Origin: Archangium primigenium
Lineage (GTDB): Bacteria > Myxococcota > Myxococcia > Myxococcales > Myxococcaceae
Length of the DNA stretch: 64,000 nt
Direction of reading: 5' to 3'
Assembly: GCF_016904885.1 (NCBI RefSeq)
Contig: NZ_JADWYI010000001.1
Coordinates: 2,108,001 to 2,172,000, forward strand
Positions 17,620 through 26,375 of the stretch are shown here, in pieces. The position numbers and the translations under genes were made by a program. The number at the start of each line of letters is the position of its first letter. The first letter of the stretch is position 1. The notes below the pieces were generated by a model. That model saw only the letters and a program-made list of their open reading frames with translations. It did not search any database and was not told the DNA's origin.

Positions 17620-17647
17620 TCAGGCAACGCGCCTCTTTCACGCCCTT

Positions 17648-19676: not shown

Positions 19677-20558
19677 ATGGAACTTCGCGTTGGCCCGAGC
19701 GCCGTGCCTTCCTCGTCCGCGTCGCTGCCCGGGGCCTGGGGCCGCATCGATTGGTCTCCCCCCGTCCCCGACCATTTCCTCATCCCCGAGCATCACTACC
19801 GCATGCGCGGGGATTGCTCCTTCCTCACCCCCGGCCAGCGGGTGCGCCTCAACCATCTGGCGGTGCGCTTCAGTTGTGAGTCTTTCGTCCACTTCGAGCG
19901 CTACGTCATCGACTACCTCGAGCAGTACCCGGGTCGGCTCGCGCCCCTGACCGAGCGGCGGGTGCGCCGCTTCGTCGACGAGGAGCGCGTGCACGTGGAC
20001 GCCTTCTACGCCGTCCTGGAGCGTCTGCGCCCGGAGCTCCATGCCGGGCGCCAACTGCGGATGCACCGCTGGACCTGGGTGGACAGACTGCTGCTGCGGG
20101 TGTCTCCGTCCGTCACCTTCTTCCTGCTGGCGGCCATCTTCGAGGAGATGACGCTCTATGTCCCGGTGGTGATGGACGAGCGGCCCGAGCAGTCCTATGC
20201 GCCGCTGCACGAGGTGATGCGCCTGCACGCCCGGGAGGAGCGGGGCCACGTGGCCCTGGACGAGCGGGTGCTCGCCCACGCGGCCCAGCGGCAACCCCGC
20301 TGGCTCGTGAGCCTCCAGGTCGTGCTGACGCTCGGACTGCTCGTGAGCGTGGGGATGCAGATGAACCGGGCCTGGAAGCGGGGCGTCGAGCAGTTCGCCC
20401 GCGAGGAGGGACTTCGCCCCGCGCAGGCCCGCGCGCTCCTGGGCAAGCGCTTGTCCACCTCGGACGAGATGGGGTTGCGCAGCATCTCGGCCCGCCTGGC
20501 CCACTCGCCCCTGGGGGGCGCCCGCCTGCTGCGTGCCGTGCTGGACCGACTGACGTGA
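19677..20558 (+). CDS. AurF-like diiron oxygenase
   Basis: A 293-residue protein with the full ligand set of AurF-type N-oxygenases: E74 (HFERY), E103xxH106 (EERVH), E156 or E157 (IFEE) and H184-x3-E188-x2-H191 (HAREERGH). These enzymes use a non-haem di-iron centre to oxidise amines or other small substrates, often in natural-product pathways. The ATG at 19677 starts the conserved part. The next gene starts at a GTG overlapping this stop (GTGA), and a third gene is coupled after that. No carrier protein or synthase is nearby, so the substrate is open. Family membership is well supported by the ligands. Confidence 0.85.
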   Translation: MELRVGPSAVPSSSASLPGAWGRIDWSPPVPDHFLIPEHHYRMRGDCSFLTPGQRVRLNHLAVRFSCESFVHFERYVIDYLEQYPGRLAPLTERRVRRFVDEERVHVDAFYAVLERLRPELHAGRQLRMHRWTWVDRLLLRVSPSVTFFLLAAIFEEMTLYVPVVMDERPEQSYAPLHEVMRLHAREERGHVALDERVLAHAAQRQPRWLVSLQVVLTLGLLVSVGMQMNRAWKRGVEQFAREEGLRPAQARALLGKRLSTSDEMGLRSISARLAHSPLGGARLLRAVLDRLT

Positions 20559-21949
20559 GCGCGCTCCCCCAGGTGGACTACGTGGGCGAGCCGCGGGGGC
20601 TGCTCCAGCGGCTCCACGAGCTCATCCAGATGGCGCGCGAGAGCATCGTGCTGCAGATGTACCTCTTCGCCGCCGATGGCCATCTGTCGCTGCTGCGCCC
20701 GGGGCATGCGACCTTCCCCCTCGCGGGCACGGTCGGCGGATGGCTCCTGGAGAAGCGGCGACGCGAGCCGCACGTCCTCATCGTCGTGCTGCTCGACACC
20801 AACACGCCCGATGATCCGACCCGGGTGCGCCTGCCGGGTGAGCTGGTGCGCCACCAACTGGAGCGTGCGGGGGTGCTGGTGCTCAACGCCAACCTCTTCC
20901 ACACCCGCTTCGACGCCCGGCGCACCTGGCTGCCCGGCATGGACTTCCATCGGCGCTGGCGCGAGTTCGGCGCGCGGGACTGGGTGGCCCGGCAGCAGCG
21001 CTGGCAGACGCTCCACAACGTGGAGGACCACCGCAAGAACCTCGTCATCGATCAGGGCGCGTGGGGGGCGGTCACCTCGCACAACCTCTTCGACGCGGCG
21101 GCCGCCTGGCACGAGAACCTGCTGTGCTTCGACGGCGAGGCCGCGCGGGCCCTGTGGCACACCGCCCGCCGCGCGCTCCAGCTCGCCCTGGAGATTCCCC
21201 AGCGGCTGGACGAGGCCCAGCGCACCGCCCTCCTGGCCCTGCTGTCCCGCGAGGCCCGGGGCTCGCCCCCCTTCCAGCCCCAGCCCCCGCGCCCCGAGTT
21301 GGAGGCGTTGACGGCCCCCGAGGCCCCCGCGCTGCCTCCGCCCGCGCCGCGGCGGGCGCGGGTCCGGGTGCTGGACAGCGAGCACATCCGCCCCTGCCTG
21401 GAAGCCGCCATCACGCGCGTGCCGCCTGGCGGCCACATCGCCGTGGCCACCACCTACTTCTCGGACCTGGAGATGCTCGAGCGGCTGTTCTCCGCGGCGC
21501 GTGCCGGGGTCTCCGTGCGGGTGCTCATCGACGACCTGTGCGCCCTGCCGCTGCCCGCTCCGCACGCCTTCGCCGTGCGCCAGTTCGTCAACCGTCGGGT
21601 GATCGAGGCCGCCCGCACCCGGGCGCCTTCCGGCTTCGAGCTGCGGATCCACGCCTCGGGCGCGGGGGCGATGATGCACCTCAAGACGGCGGCCTTCTCC
21701 AGCGAGCAAGGGGCCGTGCTCATTGGCGGGCAGGCCAACTACACGCCCAACTCCTTCAACGGCGCGTGGTGGGAGACGGACGTGGAGGTCGAGAGTCCCG
21801 AGCTGGTGGCGGACTTCCTCGCCCACTTCGACGCCCTGTGGCGGCTGCCCACGTGCGCGCCTCCGGCCCCGAGACCTCGGGGATTGCCGTGGGCGCAGGT
21901 GAGTCTGGCCTTGCTCGCGTTGCTGGCGCGCTGTGGATGGCGGCCATGA
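20555..21949 (+). CDS. Phospholipase D-like (HKD) protein with atypical second motif
   Basis: A 464-residue PLD-superfamily protein, related to cardiolipin synthases in layout. The first HKD motif is complete (H159, K161, D166 in HRKNLVID). The second has H375 and K377 but Ser at the Asp position (HLKTAAFS), then GGQANYTPNSF. A Pro-rich linker (about 238-266) separates the halves and a hydrophobic tail (about 445-460) may anchor the protein. The GTG start overlaps the stop of the oxygenase gene. It may transfer or hydrolyse a phosphodiester, or a related bond, on the product of its neighbours; the substrate is unknown. Confidence 0.85.
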   Translation: MSALPQVDYVGEPRGLLQRLHELIQMARESIVLQMYLFAADGHLSLLRPGHATFPLAGTVGGWLLEKRRREPHVLIVVLLDTNTPDDPTRVRLPGELVRHQLERAGVLVLNANLFHTRFDARRTWLPGMDFHRRWREFGARDWVARQQRWQTLHNVEDHRKNLVIDQGAWGAVTSHNLFDAAAAWHENLLCFDGEAARALWHTARRALQLALEIPQRLDEAQRTALLALLSREARGSPPFQPQPPRPELEALTAPEAPALPPPAPRRARVRVLDSEHIRPCLEAAITRVPPGGHIAVATTYFSDLEMLERLFSAARAGVSVRVLIDDLCALPLPAPHAFAVRQFVNRRVIEAARTRAPSGFELRIHASGAGAMMHLKTAAFSSEQGAVLIGGQANYTPNSFNGAWWETDVEVESPELVADFLAHFDALWRLPTCAPPAPRPRGLPWAQVSLALLALLARCGWRP

Positions 21950-22932
21950 CGCCCGCCTTCTCCATCACCCCGACGCCTGTCGAGCGGGCCCGGTGGGTGT
22001 CCGAGTCGGTGGGCCGGGAGGTGTACGTCAAGCGGGAGGGCGCCACCCATGCGCTGTATGGGGGCAACAAGGCGCGCAAGCTCGCGACCCTGCTCGCCGA
22101 TGCGCGCGCGCGGGAGGCCACGGACCTCGTCAGCGTGGGGGCCGCGGGCTCCCACCACCTGCTGGCCACCGCGGTTCACGGACGGGCGGCCGGCTTCGAG
22201 GTCACCGCCGTGGTCGTCCCGGGCCCCGACTCCCCCGAGGCGCGTGACTCCCTGCGGGCCACGGCCGCCCAGGGCTGTCGGCTGCTGCCCGTGAGCGGCG
22301 AATGGGCCGCCGTGCCCCGGCTGCTCGGCGTGCTGTGGGCGCTGAAGCGGCGCGGCCGGAGGCCCTACTTCCTGCCTCCGGGAGGCAGCTCGGTGGTGGG
22401 GGCCCTGGGCTACGTGGCCGCGGTGCAGGAACTGGCGCTGCAGCACGCCCGCGGGGAACTGCCCGAGTGGCCCGAGGCGATGGTGTGCGTGCTCGGCTCG
22501 GGGGGCATGCTGGCGGGGCTCGCGGCGGGCGTGCATCTGGTCGGGCGCCCGTGCCGGGTGGTGGGCGTGGCCGTCTGGAGCGCCTGGGCGGCGCACCGGG
22601 GCGCGCTCGCGTGGATGGCGCGGCGCACCCTGACCCGCGCGGCCGGCGCGAGTGCTCCGTGCTCCCTCGAGGTGGAGCGGGGACAGTTGGGCGCCGGTTA
22701 TGGACAGCCCACCGAGGCGGCCCTGGAGGCCCGGAGCCTCTTCGCCCGGGATGGGGTGGCGCTGGACCTGACCTATACCGCCAAGGCCGCCGCGGGATTG
22801 CTGGCCCTCGCGCGCGCGCCCTCGGGACCGCGCCGGCTGCTCTTCTGGCACTCGCTCTCGTCGGCGCCGCTCGGGCCGTTGCTCGAGGGGGGACCGCCTC
22901 CCTCAGCGCGTGTGCGCGCGCTCCTGCGCTGA
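21946..22932 (+). CDS. PLP-dependent enzyme of the ACC deaminase/D-cysteine desulfhydrase family
   Basis: A 328-residue fold-type II PLP enzyme. The cofactor lysine is in YGGNKARKL (K42) and a Gly-rich phosphate loop follows later (LGSGGMLAG). The family's usual substrate-loop sequence is replaced by VGAAGSHHLLA, so its activity may differ from ACC deaminase or D-cysteine desulfhydrase. The ATG overlaps the PLD-like stop (ATGA); an ATG three codons upstream is possible. The gene converges on the asparagine synthetase gene with a 30-base overlap. It probably acts on a small amino acid linked to this cluster. Confidence 0.85.
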   Translation: MTPAFSITPTPVERARWVSESVGREVYVKREGATHALYGGNKARKLATLLADARAREATDLVSVGAAGSHHLLATAVHGRAAGFEVTAVVVPGPDSPEARDSLRATAAQGCRLLPVSGEWAAVPRLLGVLWALKRRGRRPYFLPPGGSSVVGALGYVAAVQELALQHARGELPEWPEAMVCVLGSGGMLAGLAAGVHLVGRPCRVVGVAVWSAWAAHRGALAWMARRTLTRAAGASAPCSLEVERGQLGAGYGQPTEAALEARSLFARDGVALDLTYTAKAAAGLLALARAPSGPRRLLFWHSLSSAPLGPLLEGGPPPSARVRALLR

Positions 22933-24861
22933 CAGCGGGGGCGGGCTCCAGACGGGCAGCTCACACAGGCCGCCGCCCAGGAACAGGTGGTGCCAGAGTT
23001 GGGTCGTCACCACCCCGGACAGGCCCGCCTCCAGCACGTAGCGCCGGGGCGCGAAGGCGGGTTGCCGGGCGATGCACGCCTGGGCCCGGGCCACGCCTTC
23101 CGGGGAGAACCAGGCGGCGGCACGCAGGGACTCGGGCGACAGCAACTGCTCGGCCCACCGGGGCCGGTGCGGACCGTGGAAGACGGGGTGGGCGCGGAAC
23201 ATCGCCTTGGGGCGGCGGGCCAGGGTCGCGGGCACCCGGCGCGCGGCCAGCTCGCGCAGCAGCCACTTGTCCGTCAGCCCCCGCAGTTTGTAGCGCGGCG
23301 ACAGGCTCGCGGCGAAGTCGATGACCTCCTCGTCGAGGAAGGGATAGCGCGCCTCCACGCCGGAGTGCATGGAGACCCGGTCCCCCTTGTCCGCCAGCAG
23401 GTGGCCCGCGAGCAGCAGTTTGTACTCGACGTAGAGGGACTGGTGCAGCGGGTGCCAGCGGTGGCGCCTCGGGTGGTGCAGGTCCAGCTCCTCGAGGGGC
23501 GAGGCGTCCCCGAGCCGTTCCCACAGGGCCTCGCCGTAGAGGTGTTCCCGCGCACGCGAGAGTGGATCGAAGAGATCCTCCTGGGCGCCGCGGCCCGGGC
23601 CGAGCAGCGCTGGCAGGGGCAGGCGCTGTCCCCCCACGAGCCCGAAGAGCACGCGTCGCAACAGGCGCGGCCCCCATGCGCCCGCGTGCGATTCCACCCA
23701 CGACAGGACCCGGTGCGATTTGTACCAGGGGTAGCCCGCGAAGGCCTCGTCGGCGCCCTCGCCGGTGAGCACCGCCTTGTGGCCCCGCTCGCGCACCCGG
23801 GCGGCGAGTCGCAGCAGGCACGCCGCGGCGGTGTCGAACACGGGGCCCTCGGCGGCGGTGACGAGCGCGGGGAAGGTCTCGGCGATGGTGGTGGGGTCCA
23901 GGGCCACGGTGTCGAGCTCGGCCCCCACGGCGCGGGCGGCGGCGGTGGCCTGGGGCCGCTCGTCGAGCCCCGCCCCCACCAGGCCAATGGTGAAGGCCCG
24001 GGGCACGGGGTGACCCTGGCGGGCCGCGAGCGCCAGGGCCACGGTGGAGTCCAGTCCTCCGCTGAGGTAGGCTCCGACCGGAGCGTCGGCACGCAGTCGG
24101 CGGGCCACGGCGCGCGAGAGCACGGCCTCCAATTCGTCCACGAGCACCTCGGTGCGCTCCTCCTGGCGCTCCTCGCCCGTGTCCGGGAAGTCGAGGTCCC
24201 AATAGCGGCGCGGGAGGACCCGGCCCTCGCGGACCTCGAGGAAGTGGCCGGGCGGCACGGGCCGGATGCCCTCGAAGAAGGAGCGGAAGGCGGGCGCGGC
24301 GAGGAAGCAGAAGAGGTGGTCCACCCCCCGGACATCCGGACGCGCGGGGACGAGCCCCGAGGCGAGCAGGGCCTTCACCTCGGACGCCCAGAGCAGCCAG
24401 CCGTCGCGCTCGGTGTAGTACAGCGGGCAGATGCCCACGCGATCCCTCGCGAGCCACAAGGTCCGGCGGGGGCGGTCCCACAGCGAGACGGCGAACTGAC
24501 CCCGGGCCCGCGCGAAGGTGCCCGCGCCATGTTCCTCGTAGAGGTGCACCCACGCCTCGGTGTCACAGCGCGAGGCGAAGACGTGGCCCCGGGCGCTCAA
24601 CTCCTCTCGCAGCGTGGGGGCGTCATAGAGCTCGCCATTGCTGGCCACCCAGATGTCCGCGCGCTCGTTGGCCAGGGGTTGGCGCCCTCCCTCGGGGTCC
24701 ACCAGGGCGAGCCGACGCGCACACAGCGCCAGGCCGGGCTCCTGGTGAAGATGCTCGTCGTCCGGTCCGCGATGCGCGAGGGCTCGCGCCATGGCCACGA
24801 GGCGCTCGCGGGGAAACGAACGCCTTGCCTCCAGGTCCACGGCCCCGGCGATTCCACACAT
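22903..24861 (-). CDS. asnB: Glutamine-dependent asparagine synthetase (or related amidotransferase)
   Basis: A 652-residue class-II amidotransferase. Mature Cys2 (MCGIAGA) is the glutaminase nucleophile, and the ATP-pyrophosphatase motif SGGLDS is at 267-272. The late motif SMHSGVEARYPFLDEEV is typical of AsnB. It makes asparagine from aspartate, glutamine and ATP, although close relatives amidate peptides or natural products. Its tail-to-tail overlap with the PLP gene and closeness to the oxygenase cluster leave a specialised role open. The start is fixed by the catalytic Cys. Confidence 0.92.
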   Translation of the reverse strand: MCGIAGAVDLEARRSFPRERLVAMARALAHRGPDDEHLHQEPGLALCARRLALVDPEGGRQPLANERADIWVASNGELYDAPTLREELSARGHVFASRCDTEAWVHLYEEHGAGTFARARGQFAVSLWDRPRRTLWLARDRVGICPLYYTERDGWLLWASEVKALLASGLVPARPDVRGVDHLFCFLAAPAFRSFFEGIRPVPPGHFLEVREGRVLPRRYWDLDFPDTGEERQEERTEVLVDELEAVLSRAVARRLRADAPVGAYLSGGLDSTVALALAARQGHPVPRAFTIGLVGAGLDERPQATAAARAVGAELDTVALDPTTIAETFPALVTAAEGPVFDTAAACLLRLAARVRERGHKAVLTGEGADEAFAGYPWYKSHRVLSWVESHAGAWGPRLLRRVLFGLVGGQRLPLPALLGPGRGAQEDLFDPLSRAREHLYGEALWERLGDASPLEELDLHHPRRHRWHPLHQSLYVEYKLLLAGHLLADKGDRVSMHSGVEARYPFLDEEVIDFAASLSPRYKLRGLTDKWLLRELAARRVPATLARRPKAMFRAHPVFHGPHRPRWAEQLLSPESLRAAAWFSPEGVARAQACIARQPAFAPRRYVLEAGLSGVVTTQLWHHLFLGGGLCELPVWSPPPLSAQERAHTR

Positions 24862-24891
24862 GACCGGGAATCTACAGCGGCGCCGGGGGAC

Positions 24892-25188
24892 TTACCCTCT
24901 CGATCGATCCACGAGGTACCAGAGCAGCGCGGTGGCGAGGCTGCTGGGAACGAGCAGGCTGCCGGCCTCCAGGGAGGACTTCACGCCGTTTCCGCCCTCG
25001 CTGGTGAGCACCAGCACCCCGATCGCCATGACTCCGGTGAGGAGGAACACGAGCGCGCGCCGTCCCTTCCGCTCCGGGGGCGGCAGGCGCTGGAGGACCC
25101 GCATCTGGAAGCCATCATCCGGAAGCGAGGGCAGGCCCTGGTGCCGCAGGAGCGTGTCGAGCCGGGTCTCCTCATCACGGTCATTCAT
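24892..25188 (-). CDS. Small membrane protein coupled to an ECF sigma factor, possible anti-sigma
   Basis: A 98-residue protein with an acidic/basic N-terminal helix (about 1-40) and two hydrophobic segments (about 43-60 and 77-92). Its ATG overlaps the stop of the ECF sigma gene. Position suggests it restrains the sigma factor at the membrane, but it lacks the zinc-finger Cys/His pattern of the anti-sigma at 2944-3729, so it would work by a different contact. Confidence 0.7.
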   Translation of the reverse strand: MNDRDEETRLDTLLRHQGLPSLPDDGFQMRVLQRLPPPERKGRRALVFLLTGVMAIGVLVLTSEGGNGVKSSLEAGSLLVPSSLATALLWYLVDRSRG

Positions 25189-25733
25189 GGGACCTCCTCG
25201 AGTTGCCGGCGCAGCTTCTCCTTGGCGCGCGCGACGTGGGTCTTGAGCGTCCCCAGGGGGCAGTCGAGGACGTGGGCCGCCTCCTCGTGGGTCAGCTCGT
25301 TGGCGTAGGTGAGCACGAGCGCCGCCCGCTCGCGGGGCTTGAGCGCGACCAGGGCCCGCTCCAGGTCATGGCGCTCCAGAATCATGTCCGGCGGGGCCTC
25401 CCCGGTGTCTCCGGCTTCCAGGAGCGGGGGCTCCATGGGGACCTCGCGACTGCCTCGGTCGCGGCTGAAGAAGGCGTTGCACGCGATGCGGTAGAGCCAC
25501 GAGGAGAACTTCGCGCCCCCCCGGTAGCCCCTCAGTCCCTGGTAGGCGCGCAGGAACGTCTCCTGCGCCAGATCATCGGCCCGTGCCACATCTCCCCCGG
25601 TCAGGCGGCGCAGCAGGCCCCGCACCGCGGACTGATGGCGCTGCATCAGCTCGCCAAAGGCCCGCCGGTCATCCCGGAGGAGCACCCGGGTGATGAGCTC
25701 GGCGTCCGAGGGGACTTCAGGGGACGGGGACAT
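25185..25733 (-). CDS. ECF-type RNA polymerase sigma factor
   Basis: A 182-residue sigma factor. Region 2 contains LTGGDVARADDLAQETFLRA and FSSWLYRIACNAFF; region 4 contains the helix-turn-helix LTHEEAAHVLDCPLGTLKTH. Length and layout fit ECF sigma factors. It is followed by a coupled small membrane protein and preceded, 12 bases away, by a DUF6249-like gene on the same strand, so the three may form one operon. Confidence 0.93.
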   Translation of the reverse strand: MSPSPEVPSDAELITRVLLRDDRRAFGELMQRHQSAVRGLLRRLTGGDVARADDLAQETFLRAYQGLRGYRGGAKFSSWLYRIACNAFFSRDRGSREVPMEPPLLEAGDTGEAPPDMILERHDLERALVALKPRERAALVLTYANELTHEEAAHVLDCPLGTLKTHVARAKEKLRRQLEEVP

Positions 25734-25745
25734 GGACGGAGGCGC

Positions 25746-26375
25746 TCAGGACCGAGGCTCGGGCGAAAGCGCGGTGGCCCAGGGCCCCTTGCCGTTGCGC
25801 AGACGCCAGACGAGCACATGTCCTAGGCCGATGAACAGCAGCATGGCGCCCGCGCCCCAGGCCCCTTCCTCTCCCGGGATCATCGCCAGGAACAGCGCCA
25901 GCCCCAGTCCCGACGCGGACAGGATGATGCCTCGGCGCAGGTCGGAGGGCTCGTTCCGGGGCGGCGTGAGCAACCCCGGGGGAATCTCCGCCCCCTTCTC
26001 CACCACCAGCCGCACCGTCTCGTGGATCCGGCGCGCCTTGCGATCCGCGGCCCACAGCCAGGCCAGGAAGCCCGTCAGCACACAACTGAAGAAGACGGTG
26101 CAGAGGACCACGGGCGTGGGATCGAAGCGCGCCTGCCGCGACTCGCGGGACTGGAGCAGCGAGAAGAGCTGATCCTGGCTGAGCCGTCCCGATGAGGACT
26201 CCAGGTGCTTCGCCTGGGCGTCGACCTCGGCTTCCACCGCCGCCAGCTCGGCTTCCACCGCCGCCCGATGCGCCTCGAGTTCGGGGGGAGGGGGAGGGGG
26301 AGGGGGTTGGGACCAGGCCTGACCCGCTCCCAGCAGGGTGGCCATGAGACACATCTGGAGCATCTGACGCTTCAT
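25746..26375 (-). CDS. DUF6249-like membrane protein
   Basis: A 209-residue protein with a signal peptide ending near AWSQ, a polyproline run, a helical region (about 33-70, ELEAHRAAVEAELAAVEAE) likely to be a coiled coil, a first membrane helix (about 90-112), the DUF6249 segment HETVRLVVEKGAEIPPGLL, and two more hydrophobic segments. Such proteins commonly sit beside ECF sigma factors, as here. The ATG at 26375 gives the signal peptide. Role unknown; it could sense envelope conditions for the sigma module. Confidence 0.75.
   Translation of the reverse strand: MKRQMLQMCLMATLLGAGQAWSQPPPPPPPPELEAHRAAVEAELAAVEAEVDAQAKHLESSSGRLSQDQLFSLLQSRESRQARFDPTPVVLCTVFFSCVLTGFLAWLWAADRKARRIHETVRLVVEKGAEIPPGLLTPPRNEPSDLRRGIILSASGLGLALFLAMIPGEEGAWGAGAMLLFIGLGHVLVWRLRNGKGPWATALSPEPRS

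Follow-up and report, generated by a model that had tools for sequence, protein, structure and literature searches.

A rare four-gene cassette of Archangium primigenium that may make a small N-oxidized amino-acid-derived metabolite

Analysis of a 64,000-nucleotide stretch of the Archangium primigenium genome (hereafter, the window) revealed a compact 5.2 kb unit (positions 19677-24861) of four genes encoding an AurF-like oxygenase, a PLD-like protein, a PLP enzyme and an AsnB-type amidotransferase, which is conserved as a unit in three genomes with the active-site residues kept except at one position of the PLP enzyme. Our leading, though still tentative, interpretation is that this rare self-contained cassette makes a small N-oxidized amino-acid-derived metabolite. 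As a biosynthetic unit the cassette would be minimal: it encodes neither a synthetase nor a carrier, and thus does not bear the features by which biosynthetic gene clusters are usually recognized, and it joins a known nitrogen-hydroxylating module to a lipid-type transferase fold.

The first three genes are located on the forward strand and encode an AurF-like non-heme di-iron N-oxygenase (19677..20558, 293 aa), a PLD-superfamily protein (20555..21949, 464 aa) and a PLP fold-type II enzyme (21946..22932, 328 aa). They are connected by 4-base overlaps of the stop codon of one gene with the start codon of the next, GTG for the PLD gene (GTGA, 20555-20558) and ATG for the PLP gene (ATGA, 21946-21949). 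The fourth gene, encoding an AsnB-type glutamine-hydrolyzing amidotransferase (22903..24861, 652 aa), is located on the reverse strand and converges on the PLP gene, the two having the 30 bases at 22903-22932 in common. Third-position GC content of ~0.9 in all four genes fits coding sequence in the 9.49 Mb host genome. The coordinates, strands and overlaps given in the first-pass annotation are all borne out by the open reading frames of the window, and its family names for the four genes agree with Pfam and NCBIfam profile scans.

The same annotation treated the three forward-strand genes as a unit, and these genes are indeed neighbors in two other genomes, contrary to the outcome that, by the annotation's own criterion, would have spoken against a unit. 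When 96 genomes of the family and 195 genomes of Myxococcota were searched for the AurF-like and PLD subfamilies, both were detected in exactly the same three of the 195 genomes (A. primigenium, Archangium lansinium MIWBW and a Myxococcales MAG). The latter two genomes each carry the four genes in the same order and with AsnB convergent, at a protein identity to the window of 84-86% (AurF), 78% (PLD), 72% (PLP) and 78-82% (AsnB) for A. lansinium, and of 44, 49, 45 and 47%, respectively, for the MAG. The AurF/PLD overlap is GTGA in both; the PLD/PLP overlap is ATGA in A. lansinium (with the PLP start inferred, locus L013 12240) and GTGA in the MAG, and the convergent PLP/AsnB overlap extends over 36 and 15 bases, respectively. 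Since this layout, including the short overlaps and the convergence of AsnB, is maintained in two other genomes at down to 44-49% identity, it is not due to chance. The order and overlaps of the trio recur, AsnB also belongs with it, and a real unit of four genes, rather than of the trio alone, is well supported.

The flanks of the cassette differ in all three genomes: in the window, its neighbors are an ECF sigma/anti-sigma pair and an anthrone-oxygenase-like gene; A. lansinium has genes for an alpha/beta hydrolase and an ABC transporter there, and the MAG has pseudouridine-synthase and RNase H/helicase genes. The DNA match of A. lansinium spans 19726-24882 of the window, almost exactly the four genes, and is located apart from the matches of that genome to the other flanking genes of the window. 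None of the genes conserved across the three loci encodes a carrier protein, transporter or regulator, a point against our leading interpretation. On the upstream side, the anthrone-oxygenase-like gene (PF08592, 19090-19572) is divergent from the cassette and not conserved with it, and the synteny that the window shows with relatives of the same genus and of Archangium type (83-86% DNA identity) ends at 17620, ~2 kb before the cassette. On the other side, an anti-sigma-like gene (24892-25188, reverse strand) adjoins an ECF sigma factor gene (25185-25733, reverse strand; Pfam sigma70 r2/r4). This pair, on the AsnB strand and 30 bases upstream of AsnB, possibly drives AsnB in the window; neither of the two other genomes has it beside the cassette, and similar sequence occurs elsewhere in related genomes, which places it outside the conserved unit. 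A perfect 21-base tandem repeat (1.9 copies) is found further on at 26226-26265, and the promoter/terminator and tandem-repeat scans yielded nothing bearing on the cassette.

These comparisons leave hardly any credibility to the four genes being independent housekeeping genes that became neighbors by accident. The cassette AsnB is the sole AsnB homologue in the host genome (at E<=1e-10) and could, in that case, supply asparagine, but the AurF and PLD genes are absent from most relatives, and the persistence of order, overlaps and convergence at such divergence and between different flanks contradicts this explanation. Moreover, the same threshold yields no AsnB homologue in G002, a related genome, which makes a general asparagine supply an unlikely role of AsnB in the family.

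The linkage appears to be a property of a particular AurF subfamily. A profile search detected AurF-like proteins in general in 51 of the 195 Myxococcota genomes, and PLD, PLP and AsnB partners accompany none of the 20 other AurF-like loci in the phylum for which up to 20 kb of surrounding sequence was fetched; thus, the linkage is specific to the cassette AurF subfamily and not something that AurF-like genes show in general. The AurF, PLD and PLP genes are under purifying selection (NG86 dN/dS between the window and A. lansinium of ~0.19, ~0.33 and ~0.33, respectively). Searches outside Myxococcota were shallow: a genome-contig scan with two strict peptide patterns, which may miss distant relatives, returned only the two myxobacterial loci; plasmids gave no AurF match, and their matches to PLD were limited to distant domains (27% and 24% identity), and viral contigs gave neither an AurF nor a PLD match. 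The patchy presence in 3/195 genomes could also suggest a role in anti-phage defense, with a PLD-type nuclease at the core of the cassette and other genes modifying small molecules. A PADLOC scan revealed only marginal matches, all of them for PLD and including a very weak similarity to DrmC (E 0.0034), but no match for the AurF, PLP or AsnB proteins, and the examined flanks consist largely of ordinary cellular genes, none of them recognized as a known defense or mobile gene, so that we consider a defense function very unlikely.

The AurF-like protein of the window scores 28.8 bits (E 8.6e-7) against PF11583, just under the gathering score of 29.6, which is exceeded by both orthologous loci in the genome search (37.0 and 32.3 bits). 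An alignment of the window protein with its orthologues in the other two cassettes and 13 more AurF-like proteins of the phylum, in which one AurF-family member matches AurF itself (3chh, E 8.6e-36), places E74, E103, H106, E157, H184, E188 and H191 in the iron-ligand columns. These three His and four carboxylates (pattern E...ExxH...E...HxxxExxH) are invariant in the three cassette copies, and the same set has been reported for AurF, CmlI and DnfA (PMC9478400). Six of these ligands had been named correctly before, and of E156 and E157, both considered earlier, the alignment points to E157, which is aligned with Glu in all but two divergent members. E156 and E68 were set aside as iron ligands, as the alignment favors E157 and E74. 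The AlphaFold model of this protein (pLDDT 60) is too weak for ligand geometry; the predicted helical bundle matches AurF 3chu and 2jcd with VIA-align Z of 11.8 and 11.7, tied with other di-iron bundles, and Foldseek with the same model gave no match at E<=0.001. The complete ligand set supports AurF-type N-oxidation, as had been proposed, as the probable activity of this protein.

The second component of the putative nitrogen-handling module, AsnB, is a full-length protein with both active sites, as judged by Cys2 (MCG start), the PP-loop SGGLDST and the GEG..DE motifs; the N-terminal Cys is kept in the other cassette copies. It matches Asn_synthase with 250 bits and passes the asparagine synthase model TIGR01536 (391.9 bits, cut-off 267.1). 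Its best solved-structure match, slightly preferred, is the hydroxyamidotransferase 7ylz. This match was dropped as proof of a hydroxyamidotransferase because an unrelated AsnB paralogue has the same top match and the order is reversed for the MAG orthologue, with E. coli AsnB (1ct9) ahead; having failed these controls, it leaves the AsnB sequence alone not favoring hydroxylamine over ammonia. The AsnB of A. lansinium (locus L011 11543-13497) is interrupted by a frameshift at about residue 205, reflecting either an assembly error or real decay to a pseudogene.

The PLP enzyme (PF00291, PALP, 114.5 bits) is assigned by sequence similarity to fold-type II and, within it, to the D-cysteine desulfhydrase / ACC deaminase group. 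It matches D-cysteine desulfhydrase 4d97 (E 2e-48) and scores 151.8 bits against the D-cysteine desulfhydrase model TIGR01275, below the cut-off of 289.4, and is thus related to this family but not a member of it. Its nearest non-cassette relative found in the family (40%; G073:C2:144000-163900, locus L095) is located in an NRPS cluster, which also includes a methyltransferase gene and a PhyH dioxygenase. Comparison of key columns among the three cassette copies and this relative showed that the enzyme keeps K42, S69, Y252 and Y277, and that N70 of the SNH motif near the cofactor is replaced by His in the window copy alone (22153-22155), being Asn in the two other cassette copies and in the NRPS-linked relative. 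Residues 32-33 are G-A in the window copy and D-Q in both other cassette copies. Taken with the frameshift in the A. lansinium AsnB, the N70H replacement implies that not every cassette copy need be fully active, which counts against our leading interpretation.

The NRPS-linked relative counts in favor of our leading interpretation, but it also speaks for a more ordinary N-oxidized or amidated amino-acid antimetabolite, in which AsnB would merely amidate and PLD would act as a phosphodiesterase for release or self-protection. This possibility agrees with AsnB passing TIGR01536 and with the use of AurF homologues and other N-oxygenases in antibiotic pathways (PMC5719088, PMC7966384). The unit, however, contains no carrier protein, peptide synthetase or exporter, and we regard an antimetabolite of this kind as quite unlikely.

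The PLD-like protein (PLDc_2, 65.6 bits) contains a complete first HKD motif (H159, K161, D166) and a second one with H375 and K377 present and the Asp absent in all three cassette copies, among which the HKD residues are invariant. Its C-terminal segment is hydrophobic in all three copies, which would be consistent with membrane contact. For its low-confidence model (pLDDT 57.7), Foldseek places phosphatidylserine synthase 3hsi first (E 1.6e-10), with 8yr6, a phosphatidylserine synthase in complex with CDP-DG, also among the best matches. By VIA-align, this low-confidence model aligns with E. coli PssA at Z 17.1-17.4 over 333-340 residues and with F13, PLD and PLD3 folds at Z 18-20, close to or above PssA; matches to the nucleases PLD3/4 and to viral F13 are likewise seen.

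These features bring forward a lipid head-group pathway, in which the PLD-like protein would act as a phosphatidyltransferase adding a small amino acid or amino alcohol to CDP-diacylglycerol or a phospholipid, and the AurF-like, PLP and AsnB enzymes would tailor the head group on the membrane. The phosphatidylserine synthase matches, the two HKD motifs and the hydrophobic C-terminus are in line with such a pathway; nevertheless, PLD, PLD3/4 and F13 folds align equally well or better with a model of modest quality, the Asp is missing from the second HKD, and PLD genes are common (15 PLDc_2 matches in the host genome). On balance we consider it a possible but unlikely explanation. A version in which AurF, AsnB and PLP build a hydroxamate or N-hydroxy-amino-acid head group and a PssA-like PLD fixes it to a phospholipid, yielding a membrane lipid or a lipid-linked warhead, is in our estimate distinctly improbable. 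If the lipid link is true, it would constitute a new way of placing an N-O group on a membrane lipid, and no description of such a lipid type was found. The lipid-linked product suggested in the first-pass annotation gains some support from the match of the modeled two-HKD fold to phosphatidylserine synthase and phospholipase D folds; given the PLD3/4 and F13 matches, which also count against our leading interpretation, the lipid role is no more than a candidate one.

For the leading interpretation, a small N-oxidized amino-acid-derived metabolite, we infer the substrates, order of steps and product as follows. With O2 at its di-iron site, the AurF-like enzyme would hydroxylate a nitrogen in a TsnB7-like manner; this nitrogen would most likely belong to the amide in the glutamine side chain or to one like it. 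The N-terminal domain of AsnB would hydrolyze the resulting (hydroxy)amide, and its C-terminal domain would transfer NH2OH or NH3 onto an ATP-activated carboxylate to form a hydroxamate or amide. The PLP enzyme may supply the acceptor by eliminating or replacing a beta substituent of a small, perhaps D-configured, amino acid. In the manner of phosphatidylserine synthase, the PLD-like enzyme would attach a phosphodiester group (probably phosphatidyl) to the product or remove one from it. Phosphodiester (possibly phosphatidyl) transfer and the preparation of a small amino-acid acceptor would be the simplest roles for the PLD and PLP enzymes, respectively.

The first-pass annotation knew of no pathway with this set of genes, but the AurF-like plus AsnB-like half corresponds to a known hydroxamate-forming module of trichostatin, benzohydroxamate, actinonin and matlystatin pathways (PMC5719088, PMC13418202). 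In trichostatin biosynthesis, TsnB7 with its helper TsnB6 hydroxylates the amide of glutamine, and the AsnB-like TsnB9 moves hydroxylamine to a carboxylate (PMC5719088); for benzohydroxamate, reconstitution of the three enzymes together has been achieved (PMC13418202), and the glutamine amide is also reported to be hydroxylated by DnfAB (PMC11160463). Given the known pairing of AurF-like and AsnB-like enzymes (TsnB7/TsnB9, ActI/ActJ, MatA/MatC) and the reaction reported for DnfAB, an N-O containing amide (hydroxamate) would, by analogy, be the most likely feature of the product.

Each of the known systems matches the cassette in part. The Alcaligenes Dnf (Dirammox) cluster dnfABC likewise combines a glutamine amidotransferase with a di-iron enzyme of AurF type whose 3-His/4-carboxylate set is identical, and also encodes PLP enzymes; unlike the cassette, its DnfC is a class I GATase (PF00117) rather than AsnB-type, and it has the 2Fe-2S reductase DnfB and no PLD. 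PssA (3hsi, 8yr6) is the best Foldseek match of the modeled cassette PLD and would have a two-HKD PLD fold in common with it, at ~14% identity and with the difference that the second HKD of the latter is without Asp. D-cysteine desulfhydrase and ACC deaminase (4d97, 1j0a) have in common with the cassette PLP enzyme the fold type II, the catalytic Lys, the Ser and both Tyr, whereas the cassette enzyme is well below every specific NCBIfam cut-off, has a G before SNH and, in the window, carries N70H. In the actinonin (ActI/ActJ) and matlystatin (MatA/MatC) systems, as in the cassette, an AurF homologue occurs with an AsnB-like enzyme, and neither system has a TsnB6 helper; these enzymes, unlike those of the cassette, are proposed to act on alkylsuccinyl-CoA in NRPS/PKS clusters, and the available text of PMC5719088 mentions no PLD or PLP partner. 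A family scan of the four conserved genes detected no TsnB6-like helper, and the lack of such a helper or of an electron-transfer gene counts against our leading interpretation, even though the actinonin and matlystatin clusters also do without TsnB6. No cluster with all four families is described in the literature searched, which covered few subscription journals, and no precedent was found for the four-gene combination. Another close parallel is provided by the Streptomyces TsnB6-TsnB7-TsnB9 module (SaAmOx-AS, SaAmOx and SaHAT), where an AurF-type oxygenase and an AsnB-type (hydroxy)amidotransferase are encoded together, just as an AurF-like and an AsnB-type gene both belong to the conserved unit of all three genomes. 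Compared with this module, the cassette is without a polyketide synthase and adds the PLD-like and PLP genes, which are the new part beside a known AurF/AsnB module.
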